Of a stretch of 64,000 nucleotides of DNA, positions 6,284-60,391 are shown one piece after another (the stretch's first letter is position 1; each line of letters opens with the position of its first letter). A model generated the notes under the pieces. It was given only the letters and a program-made list of their open reading frames with translations, did no database searches and had not been told where the DNA came from. The stretch comes from Flavobacterium daemonense (lineage in GTDB: Bacteria > Bacteroidota > Bacteroidia > Flavobacteriales > Flavobacteriaceae). The DNA lies in contig NZ_VJYD01000004.1 in the NCBI RefSeq assembly GCF_007341385.1, forward strand, positions 310,001 through 374,000, given 5' to 3'. The position numbers and the translations under genes were made by a program.

Positions 6284-6395
6284 ACTGTTTAATCGGTTAA
6301 TCGTTTGATTGTTTAACCGTCAATTCGATTATAAGATTAAAAAATTCTAAGATCAAACGATTAAACAAATCAACGATTAACCGATTAACCAAAAA
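6284..6395. repeat. GTTTAATCG palindromic repeat, copy 1
   Basis: Two imperfect inverted arms built from GTTTAATCGGTTAATCG and its complement flank about 40 bp and end 3 bp before the purU ATG. Related copies lie at 45727, 56523 and 56999. Confidence 0.75.
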
Positions 6396-6397
6396 AG

Positions 6398-7252
6398 ATG
6401 CAAAAAATTACCATTCTTATTCACTGTAAAGACCAAAAGGGAATTATTGCGGCAGTGACTACTTTTATTGCTAAAGTCGAAGGAAATATTACGTATATCG
6501 ATCAACATGTTGATGTTGAGCAAAATGTTTTTTTTATGCGATTGGAATGTGAATTGACCAATCACAAAATTACAATCGATAGCTTTAAAGAAGATTTCGA
6601 CAAAACCCTTGCATCCGACTTTAATATGTCATGGGATTTATACAATCAAGAGCAAAAACCAAAAATGGCCTTGTTTGTTTCTAAGTATGATCATTGCCTT
6701 TTTGACATTTTAGGTCGTTACAGCGCCGGCGAATTAAACGTTGAAATTCCTGTTATTATAAGCAATCACAACGATTTGAGATCTGTTGCGGAACGATTCA
6801 ATATTCCGTATCACTGTGTGCCTTTTACAAAAGATAATAAAGAAGAAGGCGAAGCCAAACAAATTGAGCTTTTACAAAGATATGAGATCAATTTTATCGT
6901 TTTGGCGCGCTATATGCAGATTGTGACTCCAAAATTGATTTCGCTTTACGAGAATAAAATCATCAACATTCACCATTCGTTTTTGCCTGCTTTTCCGGGT
7001 GCAAAACCCTATCATTCGGCTTTTAAGCGCGGTGTAAAAATTATTGGAGCAACAAGCCATTATGTTACCGAAGAATTAGACGAAGGTCCAATCATCGAAC
7101 AGGATATTGCGAGAGTTTCGCATATTCACTCGGTTGAAGATTTTATTATGAAAGGACGCGACTTAGAAAGAATTGTTTTGGCACGAGCTATAAAACTACA
7201 CGCTGAACGTAAAACAATGGTTTACAGTAATAAGACGGTGGTTTTTTCCTAA
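6398..7252 (+). CDS. purU: Formyltetrahydrofolate deformylase
   Basis: 284 residues, the usual length. An N-terminal ACT domain (about 1-80, begins with HCKDQKGIIAAVTTFI) is followed by a formyltransferase-fold hydrolase domain. The catalytic triad is visible as Asn190, His192 (in NIHHSFLPAF) and Asp228 (in EELDEGPI). It hydrolyses 10-formyl-THF to formate and THF, which balances one-carbon pools and can feed formate to purine synthesis. The start follows directly on a palindromic repeat, so the leader RNA may be structured. A moderate terminator follows at 7292. Confidence 0.93.
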   Translation: MQKITILIHCKDQKGIIAAVTTFIAKVEGNITYIDQHVDVEQNVFFMRLECELTNHKITIDSFKEDFDKTLASDFNMSWDLYNQEQKPKMALFVSKYDHCLFDILGRYSAGELNVEIPVIISNHNDLRSVAERFNIPYHCVPFTKDNKEEGEAKQIELLQRYEINFIVLARYMQIVTPKLISLYENKIINIHHSFLPAFPGAKPYHSAFKRGVKIIGATSHYVTEELDEGPIIEQDIARVSHIHSVEDFIMKGRDLERIVLARAIKLHAERKTMVYSNKTVVFS

Positions 7253-7532: not shown

Positions 7533-7587
7533 CTTAACTTATGGTCAACAAAGTAATAACAAAACCTTAACAGCAAAAGATTGATAT

Positions 7588-7647
7588 ATGTCGGACATTT
7601 GTAAAGTAATAAACTGGTTATTTATTATTTTGGTTTTGGTTAGTTAA
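7588..7647 (+). CDS. 19-residue hydrophobic micro-protein, copy 1
   Basis: ATG to TAA encodes MSDICKVINWLFIILVLVS. A short polar head is followed by a single hydrophobic helix long enough for a small membrane peptide. Support: the second unit 367 bp downstream keeps the frame, start and stop. Of the three codon changes one is silent (GAC/GAT), one is conservative (Ile/Leu) and one is Lys/Asn. A terminator stem begins 3 bp after the stop. Size and hydrophobicity resemble Ibs-type type I toxins, but this is only a resemblance. The alternative is a non-coding RNA whose sequence happens to be open. Confidence 0.5.
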   Translation: MSDICKVINWLFIILVLVS

Positions 7648-7650
7648 ATG

Positions 7651-7686
7651 ATGCCGGCGTCTTCGAGATGCCGGCATTCTTTTTTT
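7651..7686 (+). terminator. Terminator of micro-ORF unit 1
   Basis: 11-bp stem (7651-7661 with 7667-7677, one G-U), 5-nt loop TTCGA, then a T run. Confidence 0.85.
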
Positions 7687-7748
7687 ATAAAAATTTTGTT
7701 TCAGGTTTCAGGTTTTCTTAGTTTCAAGTTACTTTACTTTGAATACAA

Positions 7749-7881
7749 TTTAACCGCAAAGACCGCAAGGTTTTTTTATGAACTCTTATATAAAGCGCAA
7801 AGTTCGCAAAGCTTTATGTAAAAAACTTTCCTCCCGATAGCTATCGGGATTGCGTAATTCTTAGCGTTCGTTGCGGTTAAA
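7749..7881. repeat. ACCGCAAAG palindrome between the two units
   Basis: TTTAACCGCAAAGACCGC at the left mirrors GCGTTCGTTGCGGTTAAA at the right, imperfectly. Inside lies a CCCGATAGCTATCGGG hairpin. Same family as 8082-8290 and 9137-9330. Confidence 0.7.
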
Positions 7882-7954
7882 AAATACAATCTTTTGAACA
7901 TTAACTTATATCCAACAAAGTAATAACAAGATCTTAACAGCAGTACATTGATAT

Positions 7955-8014
7955 ATGTCGGATCTTTGTAATGTAATAAACTGGTTATTTATTATTTTGG
8001 TTTTGGTTAGTTAA
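7955..8014 (+). CDS. 19-residue hydrophobic micro-protein, copy 2
   Basis: Encodes MSDLCNVINWLFIILVLVS, 17 of 19 residues identical to copy 1. The last 13 codons (VINWLFIILVLVS) are identical at DNA level. The terminator stem starts 3 bp after the stop, as in copy 1. Single predicted membrane helix, no recognisable Shine-Dalgarno, which is normal for this phylum. I found no further copy in the window. Confidence 0.5.
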   Translation: MSDLCNVINWLFIILVLVS

Positions 8015-8017
8015 ACA

Positions 8018-8051
8018 ATGCCGACGTCTTTGAGATGTCGGCATTTTTTTT
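8018..8051 (+). terminator. Terminator of micro-ORF unit 2
   Basis: 11-bp stem (8018-8028 with 8034-8044) with an A-T pair where unit 1 has G-C, loop TTTGA, then eight T. Confidence 0.85.
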
Positions 8052-8081
8052 GTTTCAAGTTGATTTATTTGTTTCAGGTTT

Positions 8082-8290
8082 CTCCCGAGGCTTCGGGATC
8101 AGGTTGCTTTACTTTGAACATAATTTAACCGCAAAGAACGCAAAAGTATTTTTATTTAGGAGGCTATGTATTAAACGCAAAGGTCGCAAAGCTTTGTCTA
8201 AAAAACTTTGCGTACTTTGCGTAATTCTTAGCGTCCTTTGCGGTTAAATTATGTTCAAAGTAAAGCAACCTGATCCCGAAGCCTCGGGAG
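8082..8290. repeat. Long palindrome with 55-bp perfect arms
   Basis: 8082-8136 and 8236-8290 are exact reverse complements, 99 bp apart, and the pairing continues imperfectly inward through CGCAAAG words. The arms include CTCCCGAGGCTTCGGGA, itself a hairpin. An open frame crossing this palindrome (8035-8247) is not considered a gene. Confidence 0.9.
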
Positions 8291-8310
8291 AAACTTGAAA
8301 CAAAAGAATA

Positions 8311-20360: not shown

Positions 20361-20473
20361 ATCCCGATAGCTATCGGGACTGTCTATTCGCTATATCTTT
20401 TTAGGCAGAATACCATGGTTTATAAGCTCTTTTTCGTTTGCCTAAAAAGGATGCCGCTTCTATCAGGGCTAGA
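20361..20473. repeat. CGCTATATCTTTTT hairpin element, copy 1
   Basis: Begins with ATCCCGATAGCTATCGGG, then CGCTATATCTTTTTAGGC, a variable middle, GCCTAAAAAGGATGCCGC, and ends at ATCAGGGCTAGAAC. The second copy is at 60021. The open frame crossing this element is not a gene. The remaining bases between prfA and 20572 show nothing else. Confidence 0.75.
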
Positions 20474-20571
20474 ACATTTGTTTTCAAAAGAAGTTTTACG
20501 GATTTCCGTAATGCTTTTAAATTCTGAGAAATTACTTTTGAAATCAACAAACCAATAACCTAAACCATATA

Positions 20572-59952: not shown

Positions 59953-60020
59953 TATATACACATTTCTAAGATTCATATTTGGCTTTAGAAGCAGAAATAA
60001 ATTTTTCCAAAACAACTTTC

Positions 60021-60094
60021 AGTCCCGCTGTCCGCTATATCTTTTTATCCGCAAAAAAGCAGATAAAAAGGATACCGCTCCCATCGGGGCTAGA
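60021..60094. repeat. CGCTATATCTTTTT hairpin element, copy 2
   Basis: Starts AGTCCCGCTGTCCGCTATAT, then a stem with CTTTTTATC and GATAAAAAG, and ends GATACCGCTCCCATCGGGGC. Matches copy 1 at 20361-20473. The rest of the 545-bp gap between lgt and secDF (59953-60391) shows no gene; the frame at 59939-60160 crosses this repeat and is rejected. Confidence 0.72.
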
Positions 60095-60391
60095 ATAGAC
60101 TTTCTTGTTTTCGAAAGACCTTTTAGCAAAACTGCAAAAAAAAACTTAGTATCACGCTAATAAACAAAATTACGCCACAAGCAAATCACTCAAACAAATT
60201 GGCAAAACCCACTCTATGAGCACTTAAAACTTAAATACAGCTTCTTTTCTTGCTTTTGCAAATCTTCATAAAAACTCAAAAAATATCTACTCTTAAAATT
60301 AAATTAGCAATAAAAAAGATCACACTTAAATTTCCAACAAAAAGCTTGGCTTTAAAACCAAAGAAATTCAAAAATCAATTCCTATAAAACA

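Follow-up and report, generated by a model that had tools for sequence, protein, structure and literature searches.

Two tandem units in Flavobacterium daemonense are probably small RNA genes with a Pho-box-like promoter array

Type I toxin-antitoxin pairs of the Ibs-Sib kind are arranged in tandem repeats and carry a hydrophobic frame of roughly 19 residues. Three described small RNAs are close to the locus presented here in other respects. FopS and GibS of Bacteroides are short multicopy sRNAs with a conserved seed; the FopS RNAs of ~65 and 70 nt are described as pairing near the start codons of outer-membrane transporter mRNAs (PMC11697453). The sRNA Rfp18 of F. psychrophilum is described as widely conserved within the genus, and its predicted pairing region is the third stem-loop (PMC9723704). 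EsrL of E. coli is reported as a phosphate-induced sRNA with a PhoB site, at which PhoB was not detected by the ChIP-seq of the same paper (PMC10294691). A pair of repeats in the genome of F. daemonense resembles FopS/GibS, from the same phylum, and EsrL, from a different one, as far as these are described in the sources, and it shares its genus with Rfp18. In contrast to FopS, which is described with 14 copies, canonical promoters and induction by bile salts (PMC11697453), the repeat is mostly confined to one syntenic locus with 1–3 copies and a Pho-box-like array, and unlike Rfp18 its predicted RNA has two hairpins. With Ibs-Sib it has in common the tandem repeats and a hydrophobic frame of ~19 residues, but this frame is not conserved. 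No paper recognisable by title or abstract as dealing with a phosphate-controlled sRNA in Flavobacterium was found among the open-access papers listed; the RNA may already have been detected in F. psychrophilum under another name (Rfp1-89 list).

The window, i.e. the 64,000-nt stretch of contig NZ_VJYD01000004.1 (positions 310,001 to 374,000) that was analysed, contains repeat units starting at 7534 and 7901, 367 bp apart and 84% identical over 177 nt. The tandem pair named in the preliminary description is real and has conserved copies in other genomes of the genus. The F. daemonense genome (4.75 Mb) contains exactly two copies by BLASTN. Of 299 genus genomes sampled, 168 match the unit at E≤0.001, and 143 of these do so strongly (E<1e-10). 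The exact core of the unit was found at no fewer than 119 stretches in a scan of named genomes. Among the 80 titles listed its carriers are Flavobacterium, except for [Flexibacter] sp. and some MAGs labelled Bacteroidetes, Flavobacteriaceae or Lentimicrobium. The 119 loci listed, each trimmed to 8 kb at most, hold one exact core in 83 cases, two in 35 and three in 1, these counts being lower bounds; cores of multi-copy loci lie 188–492 bp apart. At least one of purU, up246, btuF-like, pyrF and dps is nearby in 116 of these 119 loci. The usual upstream neighbour is the purU-like gene (Formyl_trans_N and ACT domains), which occupies positions 6398–7252 of the forward strand in the window. The two copies in the genome, the matches in 168 of 299 genomes and the retained neighbours at 116 of 119 loci argue that the pair is not a product of chance.

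Outside the genus, five short BLASTN matches were obtained in 197 genomes of other genera of the family; none has the promoter, and they look like chance matches. The exact core was absent from the viral contigs searched, and no unit match was found among PLSDB plasmids. Three copies, at L118:1662–1825, L128:217–380 and L184:144–307, lack the usual neighbours within their locus and have modified arrays, the L118 copy having a TATCTTTG box. They may represent a second locus; one such unusual copy (L118) occurs in F. agrisoli together with a usual one (L156).

As read from its sequence, each unit has its own predicted promoter and its own predicted intrinsic terminator, all on the forward strand. 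The promoter begins with a Pho-box-like array of hexamers, the putative activator site. In copy 1 (7534–7572) four hexamers are placed exactly 11 bp apart: TTAACT (7534–7539), TCAACA (7545–7550), ATAACA (7556–7561) and TTAACA (7567–7572). In copy 2 (7901–7939) these are TTAACT, CCAACA, ATAACA and TTAACA, starting at 7901, 7912, 7923 and 7934. The array is followed by a 21-nt spacer (7573–7593 in copy 1) and by the -7 element, GACATTTG at 7594–7601 in copy 1 (-12 to -5 of the predicted +1) and GATCTTTG at 7961–7968 in copy 2. The -7 box of the units mostly starts with GA, the consensus being TA. The sigmaA box TAnnTTTG is described as spanning -12 to -5 in F. psychrophilum (PMC9723704); by this measure +1 is predicted to fall on the G of GTAATAAACTGG, which is 7606 in copy 1 and 7973 in copy 2.

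The layout was examined in 95 aligned units found by BLASTN in 70 better-scoring genomes, short HSPs and duplicate loci being left out; like the 26 profile-found units described below, they were chosen without the core pattern. A regular expression with fixed hexamer spacing and a spacer free within 15–25 nt parses 94 of them as TTAAC(T/G)-N5-NNAACA-N5-ATA(A/G)CA-N5-TTAACA, 21 nt, NANNTTTG, 5–6 nt and the TAATAAACTGG core, and the remaining one has a single A>G inside the TAATAAACTGG core. The spacer is exactly 21 nt long in all 94 parsed units. As its bases vary and its length is constant, it behaves as expected for a promoter. Column conservation turns nearly complete at the predicted +1 in the 45 units starting with TTAAC out of 53 non-redundant ones (<80% identity between members), the core in this profile being partly fixed by the search pattern.

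The predicted sRNA of copy 1 (7606–7687, ~82 nt, both ends predicted) is composed of a 5' hairpin (7606–7613/7621–7628), a U/G-rich unpaired stretch (~7629–7648) and a terminator stem (7650–7662/7666–7678) with a T run at 7680–7686. In copy 2 (7973–8050, ends predicted) the 5' hairpin (7973–7980/7988–7995) and the unpaired stretch are followed by a terminator stem at 8017–8029/8033–8045. The fold z values of the two predicted transcripts are -3.9 and -4.1. The terminators proposed initially are borne out: the stems of the two copies, each 13 bp long and placed with its T run after the 19-codon frame discussed below, differ by compensatory changes, and more such changes are seen across relatives, with double compensatory changes in 5 of 14 consensus terminator pairs. 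Among 211 distinct units, which were picked by the core pattern so that the invariance of +2 to +22 is partly built in, all have a stem of 5 bp or more ahead of a T-rich stretch, and it reaches 7 bp or more in 208; their terminator stems have 84 different 5' arms, as counted without a background control. A 5' hairpin that begins at +1 and has 7 bp or more can be formed in 71 of 79 units (53/53 pattern-selected, 18/26 diverged). Covariation in these sequences gives the hairpin modest backing, with a few doubly changed pairs, and the minimum-energy fold of the window copies favours another weak 5' pairing. The unpaired U/G-rich stretch, UUGGUU..GGUUAGUU, is conserved.

More distant members were sought with a sequence-only profile (R1) in 80 of the 156 genus genomes that have no strong BLASTN match. 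It reached E≤0.001 in 60 of these 80 BLASTN-weak or negative genomes, some matches being weak (E to 9e-4). Thirty diverged loci were fetched and four were dropped at contig edges, so that 26 units could be read out of the 60 profile matches. Three hexamers at 11 bp are present in 25 of the 26, and the distance from the last hexamer to TTTG, for which 22–27 nt were allowed, is 25 nt in 23 units and 24 nt in 2. A GGUU..GGUUAG-like stretch is kept in 25 of the 26. Judged by these sequences, the putative array, the predicted start, the U/G stretch, the predicted terminator and mostly the hairpin persist in diverged units. Neither the units nor 20 diverged loci gave a match to an Rfam family at its gathering threshold; in a permissive search the ribosomal L20 leader (RF00558) gave 25.3 and 27 bits at the units, below its gathering score of 58.7. 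A link to Flavo-1, suggested earlier, is unsupported, as Rfam places this family at two other sites of the window and at neither unit. These two Flavo-1 RNAs (RF01705) score above gathering at 20372–20474 and 60017–60095, both on the reverse strand.

The preliminary description centred on ATG-to-TAA frames of 19 codons, and both window copies do contain them: MSDICKVINWLFIILVLVS at 7588–7647, with its ATG in the promoter spacer, and MSDLCNVINWLFIILVLVS at 7955–8014, both on the forward strand. Translation of each unit into a 19-residue membrane peptide, either an Ibs-like type I toxin or a small membrane protein, would agree with the hydrophobic tail and with a frame that is whole in these two copies and in 105 of the 211 distinct units (ATG in 111, tail frame in 153). 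Many of the 211 are, however, near relatives of the window. The 53 non-redundant units have the ATG in 8 cases, the tail frame in 14 and both in 6, and the whole frame is found in none of the 26 diverged units; homologues with a conserved frame are thus lacking beyond near relatives. The ATG lies 18 nt before the predicted +1, inside the variable spacer. Indels of 1–2 nt in TTATTATTTTGG destroy the frame with the nucleotide blocks kept, and units with TTATTA-TTTGG or TTATTA--TTGG have a broken frame together with a retained promoter and terminator. The peptide reading, Ibs-like toxin included, was rejected because of this frame loss and is very improbable; we regard both frames as spurious. 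Of the options offered at first, the small membrane protein loses its ground with the frame and its ATG in the variable spacer, and the toxin-antitoxin pair with the missing conservation of a small hydrophobic ORF; the structured small RNA is supported by the conserved promoter-RNA-terminator anatomy. This predicted anatomy, its wide conservation in the genus, the conserved neighbourhood and the loss of the frame are established at the level of sequence. The case is also a caution: when a short frame is well preserved in two closely similar copies, this may be no more than a side effect of a promoter and an RNA that are themselves conserved.

The likeliest reading, and a probable one, is that each unit is one non-coding sRNA gene of ~80 nt and that the two form a tandem of PhoB-activated, trans-acting sRNAs. 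A PhoB-type response regulator would bind the three or four TTAACA-like direct-repeat hexamers with their 11-bp period. The array ends at -34 and would abut the -33 promoter region, and the bound regulator would recruit RNA polymerase to the weak -7 box (NANNTTTG). Transcription would run from 7606 and 7973 to the intrinsic terminator and give an RNA with a short A-U 5' hairpin, an unpaired U/G-rich stretch as the probable seed, and the terminator. At low phosphate this sRNA would most likely base-pair with mRNAs in trans, its sites probably lying close to start codons.

The choice of regulator follows from promoter comparisons. Direct repeats are typical of the OmpR/PhoB regulator family, and the hexamers at 11 bp in the units are of the kind found before phosphate genes. 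A pattern derived from the units (TAACA three times at 11-bp spacing, one mismatch allowed) was searched in the whole genome. Its 5 matches fall in the two units, in the promoter of a TonB receptor gene and at two other sites. As the reversed pattern matches 8 times, the relaxed pattern shows no enrichment of its own. The receptor gene is divergent from phoB-phoR: a phoB-type gene (Response_reg and Trans_reg_C domains) is followed by a kinase gene and a Porin_O_P gene. Arrays in 30 receptor promoters from related genomes of the genus were scored with a unit-derived matrix; in 26 of them the best array outscored no fewer than 199 of 200 mononucleotide shuffles. Among 1,305 ORF promoters in ~1.7 Mb (about 36% of the genome) the receptor ranks first (23.5), a PhoU_div gene second (21.4) and L349 third (21.0), and only these three exceed the reversed-sequence control; the scan weights were hand-set after the receptor promoters had been seen, and the top rank of the receptor is partly built in. 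The best three scores are 20.4, 19.9 and 19.2 in the reversed-sequence control and 23.5, 23.3 and 22.0 in the reverse-complement one. The gene downstream of PhoU_div encodes a PHO4 phosphate transporter. Porin_O_P, one gene on two overlapping loci, stands at ranks 13–14 (15.8), which is the control level. When all positions of both strands were scanned in ~1.7 Mb with these hand-set weights, L084 being left out, the units came out on top at 27.7 and 27.1, with the receptor at 23.5 and the PhoU_div-PHO4 promoter at 21.4. The register differs: the start of the last hexamer is 31 nt from the start of TTTG in the units, ~29 nt in the PhoU_div promoter and 19 nt in most receptor promoters. The genome gave no match to PhoX, and the pstS and pstB families gave none above the cut-off.

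In F. johnsoniae the TonB receptor of the PhoBR operon, Fjoh_0545, which is equated with the present receptor by position alone, has a value of 8.02 under phosphate depletion and PhoB one of 3.06, both presumably log2 changes; several neighbours of Fjoh_0545 also show a strong rise, which OprP (-1.3, no induction) and PhoR do not (PMC8115612). The likeness of the unit array to those before phosphate genes is supported by the promoter scans. Together with the induction of the F. johnsoniae receptor, the likeness to the receptor and PhoU_div promoters makes PhoB the likely activator, and low phosphate would then be the signal. Control by another regulator of the OmpR/PhoB family would fit the repeats, which are typical of the whole family, and the several high-scoring arrays away from identified phosphate genes (L348, 23.3; L312, 22.0; L311, 21.3). 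We nevertheless consider it rather unlikely, since the phoB-divergent receptor promoter is among just 5 genome-wide matches of the unit-derived pattern and the PhoU_div-PHO4 promoter scores high. The PhoU_div-PHO4 pair (L303:9412–11421, reverse strand), whose promoter has TTAACA-N5-TTAACA and TAATTTTG, is perhaps Pho-controlled. The third-best array among the scanned promoters precedes a 218-aa ORF with no Pfam match (L349:14850–15506).

A complement of the U/G region of the sRNA lies directly before the purU start codon in the window (6374–6395, forward strand), and purU is third among 1,304 start regions in the scanned part of the genome for complementarity to the sRNA. The mean energy over 66 distinct purU start regions is -18.1 kcal/mol, compared with -13.5 kcal/mol for shuffled ones, and 0 of 40 shuffles are as low. 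For up246, btuF, pyrF and dps, start regions and shuffles gave no difference. It is the clade with at least 88% purU identity that produces the purU signal (36 distinct start regions, -22.1 vs -13.6 kcal/mol, 0 of 60 shuffles as low); regions at 80–88% (11) and below 80% identity (19) are no different from shuffles. So are those of six BLASTN-unit-negative genomes, four of which are profile-positive, and 15 further ones chosen as having purU away from the unit, at least one of which (G231) has them linked. As the pairing signal is confined to this clade, purU was rejected as a deep target; the sequences leave it a weak candidate target in the nearest clade. Neither can purU explain the wider conservation, since many unit-bearing genomes lack it. 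By BLASTN a strong unit match and purU (E≤1e-40) are both present in 130 genomes, the unit only in 13, purU only in 10 and neither in 146. This co-occurrence was withdrawn as an effect of BLAST sensitivity, because the profile matched 60 of 80 further genomes at E≤0.001, 52 of them without purU.

The unit often follows purU on the same strand and could on that account be a cis element or the 3' end of that gene, e.g. its transcription terminator. This is highly improbable, since the unit has a promoter layout of its own, purU is more than 1 Mb away from it in G010, and the 13 genomes just mentioned match the unit strongly without purU.

For separate sRNA genes, mRNA pairing is the mechanism that we infer. 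At -16 kcal/mol, 16 start regions and 10 coding windows out of 1,304 are complementary to the sRNA, both numbers exceeding most of 100 shuffles; the start regions of this genome show no greater complementarity than its coding windows. No complementarity excess was seen for the 5' 22 nt of the sRNA or in the receptor and phoB start regions. The complement pattern has 174 matches in 14 genomes, the units themselves included, vs 238 for the reversed pattern, with two genomes slightly above their own reversed-pattern control; in F. daemonense three of the 12 non-self matches stand directly before a start codon in sense. The search for genome-wide targets by this pattern was dropped, there being no start-specific excess. 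The same absence of start-region-specific complementarity genome-wide, and a repeated, unpaired U/G-rich motif kept in diverged units, would suit an RNA that works mainly by binding a protein, e.g. an RbpB-like RRM protein, and not by pairing. There is some chance of this, though a small one; on the other side, the FopS RNAs are described as both binding RbpB and pairing with mRNAs (PMC11697453).

For the pairing sRNA it may be proposed, tentatively and with somewhat less than even confidence, that the units are a genus-wide sRNA family of the Pho regulon whose U/G seed silences metabolic mRNAs at their starts (in the nearest clade that of purU) in phosphate starvation. If true, the phosphate response in Bacteroidota would have a post-transcriptional arm that has so far gone unreported. 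Plant-associated Flavobacterium is studied for phosphorus mobilisation (PMC8115612); the conserved sRNA would likely carry a post-transcriptional side of the phosphate response, and the hexamer array offers a concrete candidate PhoB promoter motif for the genus.

The end of the region 3' of sRNA copy 2 is overlapped by an 82-nt inverted repeat (8063–8309), whose arms are 94% complementary with an 83-nt spacer and contain AACCGCAAAG/CGCAAAG motifs. Within 1.6 Mb of the genome, 32 occurrences of AACCGCAAAG or its complement were counted.
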